This document shows, in pieces, positions 40,609-48,370 of a stretch of 64,000 nucleotides of DNA (position 1 is its first letter; each line of letters starts with the position of its first letter). The notes under the pieces were generated by a model that saw nothing but the letters and a program-made list of their open reading frames with translations, was not told where the DNA came from and made no database searches. The DNA comes from Sphingomonas sp. LM7 (GTDB taxonomy: Bacteria; Pseudomonadota; Alphaproteobacteria; Sphingomonadales; Sphingomonadaceae). The translations under genes were made by a program, and so were the position numbers. The DNA is taken from assembly GCF_002002925.1 (NCBI RefSeq), contig NZ_CP019511.1, forward strand, positions 2,728,001 to 2,792,000, read 5' to 3'.

Positions 40609-41304
40609 CTACAGCGTCGAAAGCGGCGCAGACCCCAATATCGCGCCGCTGGGCGCCTGGTGCGGCAGGCCATCGGCGGGCTCCAGCGTGACGGCGATCA
40701 CTGCGCCATCCTGCAGCAGCGCGCGCACCGCCGGTTCCGCGGCGACGTTGCTCACGCCGGTTCGGTTGATCAGGCCCAGCGATTGCGGGGCGCCGCCGGC
40801 GGGAACCACCCAAAGCTCGGGGACGCGCTGGCTTTCGGGCAGGCGCACGGCGCGGACGCGCAGCGTGCCGCTCGCCTGATCGTAGCGCGCGACGAGCAGC
40901 GCAGCGCCGCTCTGGTCCAGCAGCTGCGCCACCGCAGCTTCGGCCGGCCGAATAGGTTCGGGCGCTGGGCGAGTCAGCAGCAGCACCGCGAACAGCGCAG
41001 CCGCGGCGCTCGCCGCAACCGCGCCCGCACGCCAGGCGCGCAGCTTGCGGAGCACTCCGCCGGAAGCCACCGGCGCAAGCATCTGCTCTATCCGCGGCCA
41101 CACCCCTGTGCCGGGTGCGGCGCTCGGAATCTCCGCCAGCATCGGCGCCAGCCGCTCCTGCCAGGCGGCTACCGCGGTGCGGAAGCTGCGGTCGGCAAGC
41201 TGGAGCCGCAAGGCGCGGACCCGGTCCTCGCCTTCGATCACACCCAGCGCCAGCTCGGCGGCGAGCAAGTCGAATTCCTCGGGAGAGAGCACTGCGTCAG
41301 CCAT
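40609..41304 (-). CDS. Anti-sigma factor, RskA-like
   Basis: This 231-aa protein has an N-terminal cytoplasmic anti-sigma region (SPEEFDLLAAELALGVIEGEDR), one transmembrane helix (about 93-112, AGAVAASAAAALFAVLLL) and a periplasmic RskA-type domain (VPELWVVPAGGAPQSLGLI). It should hold the sigma factor encoded just upstream until a signal causes release. Its ATG at 41304 overlaps the end of the sigma gene by eight bases, so the two are made together. Confidence 0.92.
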   Translation of the reverse strand: MADAVLSPEEFDLLAAELALGVIEGEDRVRALRLQLADRSFRTAVAAWQERLAPMLAEIPSAAPGTGVWPRIEQMLAPVASGGVLRKLRAWRAGAVAASAAAALFAVLLLTRPAPEPIRPAEAAVAQLLDQSGAALLVARYDQASGTLRVRAVRLPESQRVPELWVVPAGGAPQSLGLINRTGVSNVAAEPAVRALLQDGAVIAVTLEPADGLPHQAPSGAILGSAPLSTL

Positions 41305-41854
41305 CTTCGATGCACTTTCTGACCTGTGCCAGGCCGCGGCGGATCCAGCTCTTCATCGTGCCCAGCGGCACGCGCGCGCGCTGGGCCAGTTCGGAATAGG
41401 TAAAGCCTTCGAGAAAAGCGGCGCGGATCGAGCTGCGCGGCGATTCTTCCAGCGCGTCGAGGCATTGATGGAGCAGGCCGCGCGTGTCTGCAGTGTCCTC
41501 GCCGACACTCTCCGTCGCTTCGGTCTCCGCCACATCGGCAGCGCCGGCCAACGCCGCGTCGTACCGCCCGGCAGCGCGCCGCCAGTCGATCGCACGGTTT
41601 CTGGCGATCATGCACAGCCAGGTGATCGGACTCGCACGCGCCGGATCGAATGCCGCGGCACCCTGCCAGACTTTGAGATATACTTCCTGCAACACGTCTT
41701 CGGCCAGCGCGCGTTCCCCGAGAACATGGAGGCATATGCCGAACAGTTTTGCCGATGTCAGCTCATAGACAGTGCGTAGCGCCGCCCGGTCTCCCAGCGC
41801 GACACGCTCCAGCTCGGTGACAAGACGCTTACGGGCAGGGTCGGCAACCGTCAT
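41297..41854 (-). CDS. ECF-type RNA polymerase sigma factor (SigK-like)
   Basis: This 185-aa protein has sigma region 2 (LFGICLHVLGERALAEDVLQEVYLKVW, then WLCMIARNRAIDWRR) and region 4 (YSELAQRARVPLGTMKSWIRRGLAQVRKC). It resembles the SigK group that pairs with RskA-like anti-sigmas. ATG 41854 has GAGG eight bases upstream; a TTG three codons earlier is too close to that RBS. The 133-base gap upstream holds the inverted repeat AAACGC...GCGTTT (41886-41903), and the promoter may be autoregulated. Confidence 0.93.
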   Translation of the reverse strand: MTVADPARKRLVTELERVALGDRAALRTVYELTSAKLFGICLHVLGERALAEDVLQEVYLKVWQGAAAFDPARASPITWLCMIARNRAIDWRRAAGRYDAALAGAADVAETEATESVGEDTADTRGLLHQCLDALEESPRSSIRAAFLEGFTYSELAQRARVPLGTMKSWIRRGLAQVRKCIEDG

Positions 41855-41987
41855 CCGCAACACCTCGCCTCAATTCAGAAAGCGTAAACGCCACCAGAGC
41901 GTTTCGGCTCCGTCCCGATTATCTGAATATCGAGTTATCTCGCTTGTCCGACGGTATTGGCCAGGCGCCGTGCGGCGTTTCACGCCC

Positions 41988-42989
41988 TCACAATACGCAT
42001 ACCGGATCGACCTGAATCCTTGCATCCGGTCCTGGTCCGGGCATCTCGCTCGAGAAATCCGCTGGCGCACTTTCCCCCGTCTGCTGACGGTACGCGCGCG
42101 GATCGCTGCCATATTCCTGGCGGAAGGTGCGGGAGAAATGACTGCGGCTCGAAAAGCCGCTGCTGGCAGCGATCGTCTTGATCGGCATCCGGCTGGATCG
42201 CAGCATCTTGGCGGCATAATGCAACCGGGTCATCGCGACGAACTCCATCGGCGCCGATCCCAGTATCTGGCTGAACTGGCGCGCGAAGGTCGAGCGGCTT
42301 AGGCCAGCGCACTCCGCCAGACGATCGACCGTATGCGGCGCGCCGGGCTCCTGCAGGATCGACGCGACGGCACTTGCCAGGCGCGGATCGGCCAACGCGC
42401 TGATGATGCGCGGGGTACTGCCGGGACGCTGGAAGAAGCGGCAGAGCACCGTGAGGATGCACGCCTTCATCAAGGTACTGACCAGCGCGACGGTCCCCAG
42501 CGCCTGGGGCATCTTGCCGGCCTCCCGCACCATGGTTTCCCAGGCGAGCTGGATCATCGGCGCATCGCTCACGTCTTCGATGAACAGAACCGTGGCATGA
42601 TCGAGCAGTCCGAAACTGCCCGACAGCCGGGCAAATACCAGAGCGGAAGCGACCCGGGCATCGCCCGTCGCGCGCAACAGGCTGATCTCCAATCCCGGCG
42701 GAGTCAGGATCATCGTGCCCGCCGCGCAATTGCGTGGCGGTTCGCCCGTGCCGACGAGCGTAACGGTTCCCGTCACTACATAATGGACGAGAATCGCATT
42801 GCATGGCGCAGCCTCGACGCGTTTGCCGTCCGCCACGTCCCAGGCAACGAAGCGCCGGACAGTGACGTCCATCGTCGCCAGCAGGCGATCCAGATTTTCC
42901 GATGACTGCCTGGCAGGTGCCAAGTCCGGCCTTTCGATCGATGAAGGGTTCTGAAGATACGCGCGCGAATACACCCCTGGATGCAGCAC
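41988..42989 (-). CDS. AraC-family transcription regulator
   Basis: This 333-aa protein has an N-terminal cupin-like AraC ligand-binding domain (NAILVHYVVTGTVTLVG, GTMILTPPGLEISLL) and a C-terminal double HTH domain, with helices around VDRLAECAGLSRSTFARQFSQ and IKTIAASSGFSSRSHFSRTFRQEYGSDPRAYR. The cupin ligand is unknown. The start is uncertain: GTG 42989 (used here), GTG 42974 and ATG 42872 are all possible and none has a strong RBS. It begins 16 bases after the last small acidic gene of the secretion cluster on the same strand, so it may be part of that operon or control it. Confidence 0.88.
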   Translation of the reverse strand: MLHPGVYSRAYLQNPSSIERPDLAPARQSSENLDRLLATMDVTVRRFVAWDVADGKRVEAAPCNAILVHYVVTGTVTLVGTGEPPRNCAAGTMILTPPGLEISLLRATGDARVASALVFARLSGSFGLLDHATVLFIEDVSDAPMIQLAWETMVREAGKMPQALGTVALVSTLMKACILTVLCRFFQRPGSTPRIISALADPRLASAVASILQEPGAPHTVDRLAECAGLSRSTFARQFSQILGSAPMEFVAMTRLHYAAKMLRSSRMPIKTIAASSGFSSRSHFSRTFRQEYGSDPRAYRQQTGESAPADFSSEMPGPGPDARIQVDPVCVL

Positions 42990-43005: not shown

Positions 43006-43356
43006 TCAGTAGGTAGCGGAGTCCTCGCCGTAGGAGGCGTCGGCAGCGGCCCCTAGAATGGCGCTGGTGCTGACCGTCAGCGTCGCATCGGTGGTGTTGC
43101 TCCAGCCGCCCGATCCGTCCTCGGTCTGATATTCGACGCCGGTCTCGAGATGGAGCGGAATGGTGACGTCGATACCCACGCCGGTGTCGGCATCGGCGGA
43201 TGTCGATTGTTCGGAGCCATGGCTCGACGTGTCGGAATGGCCCTCGCTCCCGCTTTCCGAGTAATTGCCATCGCCCTCGTTATCGGCGGCGGCGTCCTGC
43301 CCAGCCGTGCCATCGTTCGCTTCGGGGTCGAAAACCCTGCTCATAAATCCCGACAT
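43006..43356 (-). CDS. Small acidic protein with DTGVGID motif, putative T1SS substrate
   Basis: This 116-aa protein has no Lys or Cys and is rich in Ser, Asp, Glu, Gly and Thr. It begins MSGFMSRVFDPE, has an acidic low-complexity stretch to about residue 56, then DTGVGID, then a more ordered segment with aromatic and beta-prone residues (VEYQTEDGSGGWSN). There is no signal peptide, as expected of type I substrates. Its RBS (AGGAG) overlaps the stop of the HlyD-like gene upstream. The N-terminus and the DTG[IV]G[LI]D motif are shared with the small protein at 47559-47828. Export by the neighbouring transporter is inferred. Confidence 0.8.
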   Translation of the reverse strand: MSGFMSRVFDPEANDGTAGQDAAADNEGDGNYSESGSEGHSDTSSHGSEQSTSADADTGVGIDVTIPLHLETGVEYQTEDGSGGWSNTTDATLTVSTSAILGAAADASYGEDSATY

Positions 43357-43366
43357 CTGCTCTCTC

Positions 43367-44707
43367 CTATTCTTCGCGGAAGCTCTTGCTCACCGCGTCG
43401 CCGAACGGCTGCATCAGATAATCGAACAGCGTTCGCGCCTGGGTGGTGATGTTGACGCTCGCCGGAATGCCCGGCTGGAGCATGACACCCGCGCGCTCGA
43501 CGGCCGCTGGGTCGTCCAGCACGATCTGGGCGTGATAGCGCGGTGCGGCATTGGCTTCCTCTCCCGCGACCGCCGCAGGTGACAGCGTGACGACTTTGCC
43601 CTTGAACGCAGTTTGGCCGTGCGGGTTCACCGAGGAAAAGCGCACGATCGCTTCAGAGCCGACGCGCACATCGTCGATATCCTTGGGATCGACGGTCGCC
43701 TCGATGATCAGCGCCCGTCCCGACGGCACCAGCTCCATCAGCGTACGTCCTGCATTGACGACCGTACCCGGACCGACCTGGGCAACCCCGGAAACCCGGC
43801 CGTCCGCCGGCGCGCGCAAAAGATCGCGGTCCGCCTCGTAGCGCGTAACGTCGAGCTGCGGATTGATCTCGGCCAACTGATCCTGCGTCTGCTTCAGCTC
43901 GGAGACGAGATCGACCGATTGCGAATCGCGCGTGCGGCGCATGGTGAGTTCGGCCTCTTCGATGGCTGCGAGGCCCGAGACGCGATCTGCCTCCAATTGC
44001 GCCGCGTTACGCTCGAGCGCCCGGATGGTGGTCTTGCGCGCAAAACCCTTGGCATAGAGCATGCGGTAATCCGCCAGCTCGTCGTTGATCAGGGCAAGCT
44101 GCTTTTCGGCGGCCGCCTGTCTGGCGCGCGCAGAATCGAGCTTGGTGCCCGAAATCCCCTGGTCGGCCGAGAGCACCGAACGGTGCCGCACGAACAGCGC
44201 ACGCTGTGCCTGCATCGCTGCGGCGGCAGTCGGATCCGTGCCGCGCTGGGCGAGATCGGCAGGGAAGGTCAACGTGTCGCGGCCTTCGATCTCGGCGACC
44301 AGTCGCGCCTCCGTGGCGCGCAGCGCGTCGCGCTTGGCCTGCGCCTGGCGCAATGCCGCTCCGGAGCGCACGCCGTTGAGCCGCACCAGCGGCTGGCCCG
44401 CCCGTACCTGCTGTCCCTCGCGCACCAGAATTTCCGCGACGAGGCCGGAGGCGATCGGCTGGATCACCAGCCGGCTGCCGCTGACCGAGACCTGGCCCGG
44501 TGCGATCGCGGCGCCGTTGATCGGCACGAACACGGCGAACATCCCGAACAGCCCGAAGAACAGCAAGGCACCGAGCACGCCGAAGCGGATCGTCCGGCGG
44601 GTGTCGTCGAGCGGCTGCACGTCGAACTGGCGCATCCGGCGTTCGATCAGGCGCCGTGGCAAGGGGAGCGCCGCGCCGCCACCGAAATGGGGAAATTCGA
44701 GCTTCAT
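43367..44707 (-). CDS. Type I secretion periplasmic adaptor (HlyD/PrtE family)
   Basis: This 446-aa membrane-fusion protein has an N-terminal cytoplasmic stub, one transmembrane helix (about residues 42-66, VLGALLFFGLFGMFAVFV), the lipoyl-like half-motifs GLVAEILVREGQQVRAGQPLVRLNG and RAPADGRVSG, a long coiled coil between them, and the C-terminal HlyD barrel (VMLQPGIPASVNI). It joins the ABC transporter to an outer-membrane TolC-type channel, which is not in this window. It starts three bases after the ABC gene with GAGG as RBS. Confidence 0.95.
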   Translation of the reverse strand: MKLEFPHFGGGAALPLPRRLIERRMRQFDVQPLDDTRRTIRFGVLGALLFFGLFGMFAVFVPINGAAIAPGQVSVSGSRLVIQPIASGLVAEILVREGQQVRAGQPLVRLNGVRSGAALRQAQAKRDALRATEARLVAEIEGRDTLTFPADLAQRGTDPTAAAAMQAQRALFVRHRSVLSADQGISGTKLDSARARQAAAEKQLALINDELADYRMLYAKGFARKTTIRALERNAAQLEADRVSGLAAIEEAELTMRRTRDSQSVDLVSELKQTQDQLAEINPQLDVTRYEADRDLLRAPADGRVSGVAQVGPGTVVNAGRTLMELVPSGRALIIEATVDPKDIDDVRVGSEAIVRFSSVNPHGQTAFKGKVVTLSPAAVAGEEANAAPRYHAQIVLDDPAAVERAGVMLQPGIPASVNITTQARTLFDYLMQPFGDAVSKSFREE

Positions 44708-44710
44708 CGA

Positions 44711-46525
44711 TCAGACCTCCACCGGTTCGCGGGCGATCGACCGCACCACGTCGGTGCGCACCTTTCGGAAGACGCGCGCGCGGGGTCCATCGAGCTGGAG
44801 CTGGCCGCCCGACAGCACGATCACCCGATCGACATGCGCGATCGGATTGAGCCGATGCGCGATCAGCACGATCGTCGAGCCTTCCGACTTGAGCGTGCAC
44901 AGCGCCGCGGCCAACGCTTCCTCGCCATCCGCGTCGAGATGCGCGTTGGGCTCGTCGAGCACGAGCAGGCGCGGCGACCCGAACATGGCGCGGGCCAGTC
45001 CGATGCGCTGGCGCTGCCCGCCGGAGAGGCTCGCGCCGCCGCTATCGACCTCGGTCTCATAGCCTTCGGGGAGCGAGAGGATCATGTCGTGGACATTGGC
45101 GCGCTGGGCGGCCTTGACGACTTCCTCGTCGGGCGCGTCGGAGAAGCGCGCGATATTGTCGCGGATCGTCCCGGGAAACAGGCCGACGGTCTGCGGCAGA
45201 TAGCCGACATACCGGGCGAGGTTCTCGGCGGTCCAGTGCCGCCCCTCGATGCCGCCGATCAGCACCTTGCCCTGGCTGGGATTGGTCACGGCTACCAGCA
45301 GGCGCGCGAGGCAGCTCTTGCCGGCGCCGCTCGGCCCGACAATGCCGACAGCCTCGCCCGCGGCGATGTCGAGATTGATGGCGTCCAGCGCGGGGCGGCG
45401 GCCGCCCGCCGGTGTGAAGCGCATGCCGCGGATCTCGATCTCGACGTCGCGGTCGGGCAGCTTGACCTTCGAACTGCGCGGCGGCGCTTCGCTCAGGCCT
45501 TTCTGCACGCGTCGGCCGGCCTGGATACCCTGTGCGATCGAACGCCAGCCCGATACCGCGACTTCCAGCGGCGCCAGCGCGCGGCCCAGAAGCAGATTGG
45601 CGGCGAAGATGCTGGCGGCGAGCATCTGACCCTCGATTACCAGATAGCCGCCGATCCCGATCATCGCGCTCTGCAAGGTGAGGCGCAGGAAGCGTATCGC
45701 GGAGGCGAAGCCTGCATTGCGGTCGCTGCCCTCGGCCTGGCGGCGCATCATCGTATCGCGATCGATGTGCCAGCGCACCGCAAGCCGGTCGTTCATTCCC
45801 ATCGCGCGAACCGGTCCGGCGAAGCGCGCGACGCTGTCGGTAAAGGCATAGCTCCGGTTCGCCGCTTCGGCCGCGATCTTGGCGCTCTCGCGCGTCGCTC
45901 GATCGTTCCAGAAGGCGAGCACCAGCAGCGAAACCGCGCCGGCCAGCCCGACGGCGCCAAGCAACGGATGGATCAGGAACAGCACCAGCAGGAAGAGCGG
46001 CATCCAGGGCACGTCGAAGAAGAACTGTGCCCCCTGCCCCGCCAGCACCGATCGGAACTGGTCGAGGTCGCGCAGCAACTGGGCATTGCGGGCCGTAGCG
46101 CCGCGCGCCGGCGCGAGATCGATCACTGCCTGGAACACGCGATGCGCCAGAATCCGGTCGAGCCGCGCCGCCGCACGGATCAGCAGCCGCGCGCGCACCG
46201 AATCGAACAGCGCCATCGTGCCGAGCGCAAGCAACAGCGCAAAGCTGAGCCCGATCAGCGTAGGGATACTGCCGCTCGGGATCACCCGGTTATAAACCTG
46301 GATGAGGTAAATCGGCGACGCGAGGAACAGCAGATTGACTCCGCCGCTGAACAGCGCCGCGATGATCAGTGGGCGCTTGCACTGCATCAGCGCCGAGGCG
46401 AACTCATCGCCCTGCTCGAGCTCGGCGGCGCGATAGGCGCTGTCCATCGCGATGACTTCGGCTGCCGCTTCGGCGGCCCTTGCCTGAAGTGCCTCGGCTT
46501 CGCTCGGGGTGGTGGGTTGCTTCAT
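44711..46525 (-). CDS. Type I secretion ABC permease/ATPase (PrtD family)
   Basis: This 604-aa fused exporter has about six helices (residues 50-310) and a nucleotide-binding domain with Walker A GPSGAGKS (397-404), signature LSGGQ (500-504) and Walker B ending in Asp524/Glu525 (LLVLDEP), plus an H-loop VLIAHR. The helix-1 region ALFSGGVNLLFLASPIYLIQVYNRV is typical of PrtD/RsaD transporters. There is no C39 peptidase domain at the N-terminus, so substrates are not processed at a double-Gly leader. Its substrates are likely encoded in the same operon. Confidence 0.95.
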   Translation of the reverse strand: MKQPTTPSEAEALQARAAEAAAEVIAMDSAYRAAELEQGDEFASALMQCKRPLIIAALFSGGVNLLFLASPIYLIQVYNRVIPSGSIPTLIGLSFALLLALGTMALFDSVRARLLIRAAARLDRILAHRVFQAVIDLAPARGATARNAQLLRDLDQFRSVLAGQGAQFFFDVPWMPLFLLVLFLIHPLLGAVGLAGAVSLLVLAFWNDRATRESAKIAAEAANRSYAFTDSVARFAGPVRAMGMNDRLAVRWHIDRDTMMRRQAEGSDRNAGFASAIRFLRLTLQSAMIGIGGYLVIEGQMLAASIFAANLLLGRALAPLEVAVSGWRSIAQGIQAGRRVQKGLSEAPPRSSKVKLPDRDVEIEIRGMRFTPAGGRRPALDAINLDIAAGEAVGIVGPSGAGKSCLARLLVAVTNPSQGKVLIGGIEGRHWTAENLARYVGYLPQTVGLFPGTIRDNIARFSDAPDEEVVKAAQRANVHDMILSLPEGYETEVDSGGASLSGGQRQRIGLARAMFGSPRLLVLDEPNAHLDADGEEALAAALCTLKSEGSTIVLIAHRLNPIAHVDRVIVLSGGQLQLDGPRARVFRKVRTDVVRSIAREPVEV

Positions 46526-46534
46526 CCTGGCTCC

Positions 46535-47494
46535 TCAGATCAGGCCGAGCGTATCGGCATGCGGCAAGTCGCCGAGCGGATTGTCGTCGTGATGGCCGGT
46601 GTCGCCCAGCAACGCGTCGCCAAGCGGAATATCGGTCGCCAGCGTGTCGAGCAGGTCGGGGACGAGAAGGGGTGCAGACGCTTCGGACATGCCGCTGTCG
46701 CTCACGTCGAACACGTCGCTGATCGAGACGAGGCTGACGAGCGTCGAAATACCTCCCACCGGATCGGCGCCGAGCAGGTCGCCGAGCTGGTCGTCGACAA
46801 GGGGGAACACCGCTTCCGCCAGCGGGCCCGACGTCGCTGCGTCGAGTGGAGCCGAAGCCAGCTCCGCGACGGCGTCGATCACAGGCGAGGTCACCGAATC
46901 GAGGATCGGCGTCACGGTCTGTGCGACCATATCGACCGTGGTCGTAAGGAAATCGATCGCGTCATGCACCGCGGCGCCGGCGTCGGTCACCAGCGGTGCC
47001 TTCGTCACGACATGGCCAGCCATCTCCGCGAGGGCCGACGGTGCACCCGACGCCACGGCTTCTGCCGCCCCTGTCGATGATGTCGGCGCTTCAGCGGGCG
47101 CGGCTGCGTGGACTGTGCCACCGGGATGGGCAGGCGCGAAAACGGACAAGGCAGCCGGCGCGGCTGCAGTGAGGAATGTCGGAGCCTGAAGTGCCGCGAG
47201 GTCCAGCGCGAAGCCCGGATAGGCTGTTGCGCCGGAAAGGTGCGTGGCCTCGGGTGGTTCCTGCGCCTCGGCGACCACAGCACCGGGTTCGACCGGGGTC
47301 GTAGCTAACGCTGCCGGCGCGGCCTGCGCGATACCCACAGCGGCTGTCTGTACGTCGGCCGGCGGTGCGCCTGGCGCTGGCTTGGCCTCTCCGATCTGGA
47401 GATCGATCGGAGTCTGCCCGCCATAGAGGCCGAAATCCTGCGTCGACCAGGCAAGCAGGCGGTTGTCCGGGTTGAGCAGGATAGGATCGAGCAT
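46535..47494 (-). CDS. Ala-rich protein of the type I secretion cluster, unknown function
   Basis: This 319-aa protein starts MLDPILLNPDNRLLAWSTQDFG, a compact N-terminal region, followed by a long low-complexity Ala/Pro/Val/Thr stretch and a C-terminal half with repeated Leu/Asp/Gly units (LGDLLGADP, LGDALLGDT, LGDLPHADTLGLI). There is no signal peptide or membrane helix. Position (10 bases before the ABC gene, RBS GGAG shared with its stop) and an acidic-hydrophobic C-terminus suggest a secreted substrate or a surface partner. I do not recognise the family. The ATG at 47494 has a weak RBS; a TTG at 47515 is the alternative. Confidence 0.75.
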   Translation of the reverse strand: MLDPILLNPDNRLLAWSTQDFGLYGGQTPIDLQIGEAKPAPGAPPADVQTAAVGIAQAAPAALATTPVEPGAVVAEAQEPPEATHLSGATAYPGFALDLAALQAPTFLTAAAPAALSVFAPAHPGGTVHAAAPAEAPTSSTGAAEAVASGAPSALAEMAGHVVTKAPLVTDAGAAVHDAIDFLTTTVDMVAQTVTPILDSVTSPVIDAVAELASAPLDAATSGPLAEAVFPLVDDQLGDLLGADPVGGISTLVSLVSISDVFDVSDSGMSEASAPLLVPDLLDTLATDIPLGDALLGDTGHHDDNPLGDLPHADTLGLI

Positions 47495-47518
47495 GGCGGA
47501 CAATCCCGGATGCAAGAG

Positions 47519-47549
47519 GAGGCTGGGTCCGCTGTCCGGACCCAGCCTC
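47519..47549 (-). promoter_or_regulatory. 13-bp perfect intercistronic hairpin
   Basis: GAGGCTGGGTCCG and its exact complement (arms 47519-47531 and 47537-47549, five-base loop) lie between the small Ser/Asp-rich gene and the Ala-rich gene. On the minus strand it follows the first gene by nine bases and is not followed by a clear T tract. It may protect the upstream mRNA or partly terminate transcription, giving more of the small protein than of the transporter. That effect is inference. Confidence 0.7.
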
Positions 47550-47558
47550 GTCTAGGGG

Positions 47559-47828
47559 TCAGTCCGAGCTCGACTGGTCCGACGAACCCATCGCGTCGGT
47601 CACCGAACCGAGCAGGCCGTCGGTGCTCGTATCGAGGCCGATGCCGGTGTCGCTCGAATCATAGCTCTGATTGCCATCTTCGTCCTGGCTCCAAGATTCC
47701 GAGCTGTTGTTGGCGTCGAGGCCGATCGTCGAACTCACGTCGCCGGTGACGTCGCTGACCAGATTGCCGTCGCTCGAGTTCGAGCTCGATTCGCTGTCAT
47801 CGCTGAAAATGCCGCTGAGGGGGCTCAT
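47559..47828 (-). CDS. Small Ser/Asp-rich acidic protein with DTGIGLD motif, putative T1SS substrate
   Basis: This 89-aa protein contains no Lys, Arg, His or Cys. It begins MSPLSGIFSDD, consists mainly of Ser, Asp, Gly and Asn, and contains IGLD twice (TIGLDANN and TGIGLDTST). The second copy lies in DTGIGLD, which parallels DTGVGID of the small protein at the other end of the cluster. These segments resemble one degenerate RTX nonapeptide, but no tandem RTX array exists. GGAG seven bases from the ATG is a strong RBS. It is the first gene of the secretion operon, is separated from the rest by a hairpin, and is probably the most expressed. Confidence 0.8.
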   Translation of the reverse strand: MSPLSGIFSDDSESSSNSSDGNLVSDVTGDVSSTIGLDANNSSESWSQDEDGNQSYDSSDTGIGLDTSTDGLLGSVTDAMGSSDQSSSD

Positions 47829-48277: not shown

Positions 48278-48370
48278 TGGCGGAGACGGAGGGATTCGAA
48301 CCCTCGGTAGGAGTAATCCCCCTACGGCGGTTTAGCAAACCGCTGGTTTCAGCCACTCACCCACGTCTCC
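48278..48370 (-). tRNA. tRNA-Ser (anticodon GCT), CCA encoded
   Basis: On the minus strand the acceptor stem GGAGACG pairs with CGTCTCC, followed by discriminator G and encoded CCA (48278-48280). The anticodon arm GCGGT-TTGCTAA-ACCGC gives anticodon GCT, reading AGC and AGU. The long variable arm and the T arm with GGTTCGAATCC are present. It is the second serine tRNA in the window. Confidence 0.97.

Follow-up and report, generated by a model that had tools for sequence, protein, structure and literature searches.

A PrtD-type secretion operon of Sphingomonas linked to small acidic proteins and a predicted general stress promoter

An operon predicted to export small acidic proteins

Our data point to a stress-controlled type I secretion operon in Sphingomonas sp. 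LM7 that makes a small acidic protein of 89 aa, s89, in bulk and is predicted to export it together with a second small protein, s116, and an acidic alanine-rich (Ala-rich) protein, a reading to which we assign a probability of about 60%. That the acidic proteins are secreted, that they are induced by stress and that they act outside the cell are predictions of this reading. In the window (the whole 64,000-nt stretch of DNA that was analysed), the genes follow one another on the minus strand in the order s89, Ala-rich, PrtD-type ABC exporter, HlyD-type adaptor, s116 and AraC-family regulator, with intergenic gaps of 64, 9, 3, 10 and 16 nt, respectively (Table 1). A filter for acidic, K/R-poor, Cys-free proteins was passed by only 2 of the window's 222 ORFs of 60-150 aa, namely s89 and s116. 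A preliminary description of this DNA had placed the exporter and adaptor between two small acidic proteins and had proposed a dedicated exporter for non-RTX acidic proteins. Its gene coordinates were all correct and the gene order was confirmed on the minus strand; the proposal itself is partly supported, with linkage to the exporter in relatives, selection on s89 and s89-s116 homology added to it, and it lacked the hairpin, the promoter motifs and a second subtype of the operon that has no s116. A tRNA-Ser (gct) gene on the same strand (48278-48370, minus) lies ~450 nt upstream of s89; an Rfam scan returned one tRNA and nothing else.

Table 1. Positions of the operon genes and associated elements within the window
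Feature	Position	Strand	Basis
EcfG-type promoter motif GGAAC-N17-GTT, 81 nt 5' of the s89 start codon	47885..47909	-	
s89, 89 aa, predicted main exported product	47559..47828	-	ORF, profile, acidic filter
Hairpin between cistrons, 13-bp stem, 5-nt loop, just 3' of the s89 stop	47519..47549	-	
Acidic Ala-rich protein, 319 aa from its ATG, candidate substrate	46535..47494	-	
PrtD-type ABC exporter, 604 aa	44711..46525	-	TIGR01842, Pfam, tree
HlyD-type periplasmic adaptor, 446 aa	43367..44707	-	TIGR01843, Pfam
s116, 116 aa, homologous to s89, candidate substrate	43006..43356	-	profile, acidic filter
AraC-family regulator, 16 nt past s116	41988..42989	-	Pfam

The exporter belongs to a distinct clade

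The exporter scored 583.1 bits against TIGR01842 (cut-off 510.15), identifying it as PrtD-type, and the adaptor scored 286.9 bits against TIGR01843 (cut-off 208.65). Pfam detected an ABC_membrane domain from residue 54 and an ABC_tran domain in the window's exporter, and no C39 peptidase, indicating that it is not an exporter of the double-glycine peptidase kind and agreeing with the earlier remark that such a leader peptidase is missing. Twenty matches to TolC-like (OEP) proteins were found in the LM7 genome and none in the operon, so a potential outer-membrane partner is available elsewhere in the genome.

In the exporter tree, 15 exporters form one clade with support of 100/100, which splits into type A (nine loci; 98/98) and type B (six loci; 98/96). 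These 15 loci are those of Croceibacterium and of 14 genus genomes among the 295 covered. The order Ala-rich, ABC, HlyD is kept in all 15. The preliminary proposal depended on the small genes standing beside the exporter in relatives, and s89 is found in front of the Ala-rich gene in 14 of the 15 loci. HlyD proteins of the clade type occur in 14/295 genus genomes, with scores of at least 396 bits and the next match at 189 bits. The s89 profile matched 13/295 genus genomes at 15 places, and all 13 are among the 14 HlyD genomes; 7 of these 13 are members of the profile and match by construction, and the six that are new to it are G515, G518, G537, G610, G652 and G660.

A family-wide sample of 397 genomes contained clade-type HlyD in LM7, G008 and G108 (at least 418 bits) and 24 further HlyD matches of at most 202 bits. 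An early s89 profile, which overlooked G108, gave matches in 2 of the 397. When one genome per species was scanned with a pattern, seven loci emerged, of which four belong to the clade (Sphingomonas xinjiangensis, Sphingomonas sp. IC-56, a Sphingomonadales MAG and Croceibacterium xixiisoli) and three have distant exporters (31-33% identity). The exporter gene gave a dN/dS of 0.03 in the one pair compared. Spread of the clade on plasmids was considered and rejected, since all 1556 plasmid HlyD matches fall below 60% identity (32-36% among the 15 matches listed).

Small acidic ORFs in place of RTX genes

The cargo of the best-known PrtD-type exporters consists of RTX proteins or a small number of large proteins of non-RTX type. 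We compared the 15 clade loci with 20 related PrtD/HlyD control loci (19 of the 24 lower HlyD matches of the family sample and the second such locus of the LM7 genome), reading 12-17 kb per locus and defining an RTX ORF as one with three or more GGxGxD motifs. RTX ORFs were present at 0/15 clade loci versus 14/20 controls, such that the operon does not class as an RTX exporter operon, and small acidic ORFs passing the filter described above were present at 13/15 clade loci versus 0/20 controls. The s89 profile found nothing at 19 of the control loci. No ORF with three or more GGxGxD motifs lies in the 18 kb around the operon, which bears out the earlier statement that there is no RTX array.

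An ordinary RTX exporter that acidic ORFs happen to adjoin would also have an exporter and adaptor that pass the general PrtD and HlyD models, as these do. Such a system is difficult to reconcile with the RTX counts and with an s89 ORF that is conserved in 14 loci and has a dN/dS below 1 in all seven pairs examined, and we regard this explanation as very improbable and largely disfavoured. The clade-specific linkage and the lack of RTX ORFs suggest, rather, that the pump serves these acidic proteins. In the LM7 genome, a second PrtD/HlyD pair (L029; G000:C1:3882000-3899000) adjoins a 1542-aa ORF with five GGxGxD motifs, and because of this RTX export looks separate there.

s89 and s116 are related

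Both small proteins are acidic and have neither Lys nor Cys, as noted previously: s89 carries a charge of -18 and has no K, R or C, and s116 carries a charge of -21 and has one R and no K or C. None of 24 s89 sequences contains Lys or Cys, and 6 of them contain Arg. Searches of Pfam and NCBIfam up to E 1 matched neither protein to a family; Pfam searches with 28 s89 members gave just two single weak matches, and a PDB sequence search with s89 gave none. A search of 5.8 billion proteins up to E 1 recovered 17 s89 proteins and 3 s116 proteins, each count including the window's own. AlphaFold produced no confident fold for s89 (pLDDT 55.9), and its low-confidence model suggests a weak beta hairpin around DEDGN. 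The preliminary description had also made its case depend on purifying selection, which is apparent for s89 (dN/dS of 0.28, 0.23, 0.25, 0.27, 0.27, 0.35 and 0.54 in seven pairs) and is weaker for s116, for which four pairs of s116-like genes gave 0.29, 0.55, 0.68 and 0.59 with synonymous sites near saturation.

The suggestion that the two small proteins are related was borne out by profile-profile comparison (E 8.1e-6, probability 84%, 55 columns). The s89 profile matched two of six s116-like proteins directly (G518 and G537, at 5.6e-7 and 6.3e-6) and the remaining four not at 1e-3, and the two families have in common an N-terminal pattern of the form M..(L/F)..(I/V/L/M)F. At the sequence level, s89 and s116 are homologous, a conclusion that rests on the whole profile and the common N-terminal pattern. 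The motif DTG[IV]G[LI]D, cited earlier as a shared feature, is present as DTGIGLD and DTGVGID, but the two are not in register: the profile alignment pairs DTGVGID of s116 with SSTIGLD of s89, and we rejected the motif as a basis for homology.

All nine type A loci have an acidic gene after HlyD, which is s116-like (89-124 aa) in six and larger in three (372, 388 and 387 aa in G678, G631 and G072, respectively). The idea that these larger genes are built of s89/s116 modules found no support: whole-protein scores vanish after composition correction for G631 and G678 (bias of 54-74 bits), and G072 reaches at best E 0.005, against the s116 profile. The 387-aa gene of G072 (L025:10843-12006) consists, by eye, of long near-identical repeats of ~70 aa. 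A third small acidic gene is present in G008, and its N-terminus matches the s116 profile (E 5.9e-5). Type B loci contain no s116-like gene.

A pair of small proteins beside a type I exporter recalls the Cdz system of Caulobacter, and the proteins could be a contact-dependent toxin pair, exported to the surface to kill neighbours. Their size class and the kind of exporter are the same (CdzC, 86 aa; CdzD, 84 aa; exporter CdzAB; as described in PMC5380434), and the patchy spread, 14/295 genomes, would suit a competition trait. The glycine-zipper pattern GxxxGxxxG, however, occurs in 0/10 s89 and 0/6 s116-like proteins tested; the gaps within the operon, 3-64 nt, are too short to hold an immunity gene; besides the regulators, no flanking gene is conserved subtype-wide among the ORFs of at least 100 aa that were compared; and type B has no second small protein. 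A toxin pair is thus distinctly improbable.

The Ala-rich protein and the role of s89

The Ala-rich protein has a charge of -37 and is, of the three acidic proteins, the only one present in all 15 clade loci; the preliminary description had left it out of the substrates, though it is equally acidic. A conserved N-terminus (~27 aa) and a conserved C-terminal region flank a variable middle. Pfam gave no match for the protein and NCBIfam a single model, far under its cut-off (12.7 versus 414 bits), AlphaFold gave no confident fold (54.9), and a PDB search with its profile returned ten weak matches (E 0.0015-0.074), several of them helical bundles. At least 11 relatives, including the window's own, were found among 5.8 billion proteins (E ≤ 0.01; best 7997 candidates scored); relatives P0027-P0031 keep both conserved ends, and one source names Allosphingosinicella. 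In a family sample of 283 genomes, the profile matched LM7 and G108 and, in part, G177 (E 2.7e-7); we took this last match for composition. dN/dS values for the Ala-rich gene were 0.22 and 0.41.

These properties raise the alternative that the Ala-rich protein is the sole real substrate and that s89 and s116 stay inside the cell as acidic helpers (secretion chaperones or exporter-docking proteins). The Ala-rich protein is present also where s89 is missing, its C-terminal region is conserved, and the window's copy ends in LI, which fits the ending [FLI][VAI] described for RTX substrates in PMC8861453, whereas neither small protein has at its C-terminus the hydrophobic pair typical of those substrates. 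According to the same paper, C-termini of RTX-type substrates are depleted of R, K, E and P and enriched in D, L, T, V, I and F, and the lack of K and R fits this bias. A helper would hardly need a promoter and hairpin of its own or a separate unit in two genomes. Second s89 copies lie away from any exporter in G631 and G678 (L124:8062-8325 and L128:8318-8584), indicating that s89 need not travel with the pump, and in both genomes the promoter-s89-hairpin cassette stands alone, suggesting that the cell makes s89 as a product in bulk rather than as part of the exporter. G072, a metagenome-assembled genome, has exporter and Ala-rich genes in a 4-kb exporter locus and has no s89 before the Ala-rich gene nor, by profile, elsewhere in its genome, so s89 is dispensable for the pump. 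On balance, we consider a helper role for s89 and s116 unlikely.

A hairpin follows s89

The G+C-rich hairpin of the window has a stem that starts at the 10th nt past the stop of s89 and leaves 24 nt between its end and the start codon of the Ala-rich gene. Having seen it first in the window, we then sought gapless stems of at least 11 bp within 90 nt of the stop codon elsewhere, and found them after s89 in 12 of 14 loci, compared with 2.4% of 6007 background windows. At other positions in the operon such stems are rare (after Ala-rich, 0/15; ABC, 0/15; HlyD, 1/15; last acidic gene, 1/9). G073 has a long but interrupted stem after s89 by folding, and Croceibacterium a weaker one, judged by eye; the unlinked copies have a 16-bp stem (L124) and an interrupted stem seen by eye (L128). 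Stem sequences vary between loci. At least four T residues stand at the stem end in 4 of 14 loci (G515, G537, G631 and G678). The window hairpin has no T-run and is absent from the list of a strict terminator scan, and termination there is uncertain because of the missing T-run. Scans for sigma-70 promoters and T-run terminators performed at chance level.

Two subtypes with different predicted control

The motif GGAAC-N17/18-GTT lies at -81 to -93 of s89 in all eight type A loci that have s89, a count that includes the loci in which it was first spotted by eye, and it also precedes both unlinked s89 copies (at -85 and -87), which are its one independent check. The background is 0.012 per 300 nt, and the spacers differ in sequence between loci. 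GGAAC/GTT is the consensus of EcfG targets in Sphingomonas melonis (PMC6599016), and the motif before s89 has the EcfG-regulon form GGAAC-N17-20-GTT near a start codon. NepR is encoded in the LM7 genome. The EcfG motif was found in none of the six type B loci within 300 nt before s89, and it is absent before the Ala-rich gene of G072. Five of the six type B loci (not G660) have instead a Crp-like palindrome 40-46 nt before s89, a pattern spotted by eye in the same loci, loosened to take in all five and supported by no independent copy.

The subtypes differ also in their regulator genes. A linked AraC gene is present in 8/9 type A loci, with the relative upstream of s89 in the seven other than the window's; the assignment comes from Pfam for the window's gene and from 32-40% identity for the others. 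Type B loci contain no AraC gene and have a homologous divergent gene in 6/6, which is of the Crp/Fnr type in the two that were scanned. Behind the window's AraC gene lie genes for an ECF-type sigma factor and an RskA-type anti-sigma factor (40609-41863, minus strand), and in G518 relatives of these genes flank the operon on the same side.

Proposed mechanism

At the s89 promoter of type A loci, transcription would be fired by the general-stress sigma factor EcfG with tuning by the AraC-family regulator, and at that of type B loci the divergent Crp/Fnr-type regulator would act. The hairpin may end or protect a short s89 message, which would leave s89 in excess, and read-through would supply the exporter genes. 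The unfolded acidic proteins could then leave the cell in one step through the exporter, the adaptor and a TolC-like channel whose gene lies elsewhere. Once outside, the proteins might make up a surface or matrix layer that is hydrated and binds cations; this is the weakest step of the scheme. A bolder version strikes us as doubtful. It sees the operon as a new class of type I secretion, in which a stress-fired pump sheds large quantities of a polyanionic, disordered miniprotein free of Lys and Cys, made from a promoter-gene-hairpin cassette, and an acidic protein coat is built with s89 as main subunit, s116 as a cap or minor component and the Ala-rich protein as an anchor of variable length.

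Comparison with known systems

A literature search, which covered few subscription papers, found no paper on this gene set. Like other PrtD/HlyD type I systems, the operon passes TIGR01842 and TIGR01843, encodes no peptidase domain and contains no TolC gene; unlike them, its clade has acidic proteins of its own and no RTX ORF. The whole exporter clade is tied to tiny acidic proteins, the first gene lying behind a predicted stress promoter, and the operon would, if our reading is true, offer a small, simple system in which to study how disordered proteins that have neither RTX repeats nor double-glycine leaders are exported by the type I route.

The layout resembles hlyCABD-like operons, in which a cargo gene precedes the exporter genes with an elongation barrier between them. 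The hlyA-hlyB terminator lies between toxin and exporter genes, and the cargo of the window differs in consisting of non-RTX small proteins, with stem sequences that vary between loci. RfaH aids elongation through hlyCABD (PMC12846084). The promoter motif resembles that of the sphingomonad EcfG regulon (PMC6599016, PMC7083833), in which GGAAC-N17-20-GTT is enriched within 100 bp of the start; neither paper, however, uses the word "secretion" in its main text. Our reading, if true, would connect a dedicated secretion system with the general stress response of Alphaproteobacteria.

Among described systems, Cdz of Caulobacter (CdzABCDI) comes closest; according to PMC5380434, it likewise combines a type I exporter with two proteins of ~85 aa and has no outer-membrane gene in its cluster. 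The window system differs from it in its Ser/Asp-rich acidic proteins without glycine zippers, in the additional Ala-rich protein, in having no immunity gene recognised inside the operon or among the flanking ORFs of at least 100 aa, and in cargo that lies on both sides of the exporter; its small proteins are set apart from CdzC and CdzD by the published description and by the motif. We therefore do not file the operon with Cdz and describe it as a PrtD-type system with unusual linked proteins.
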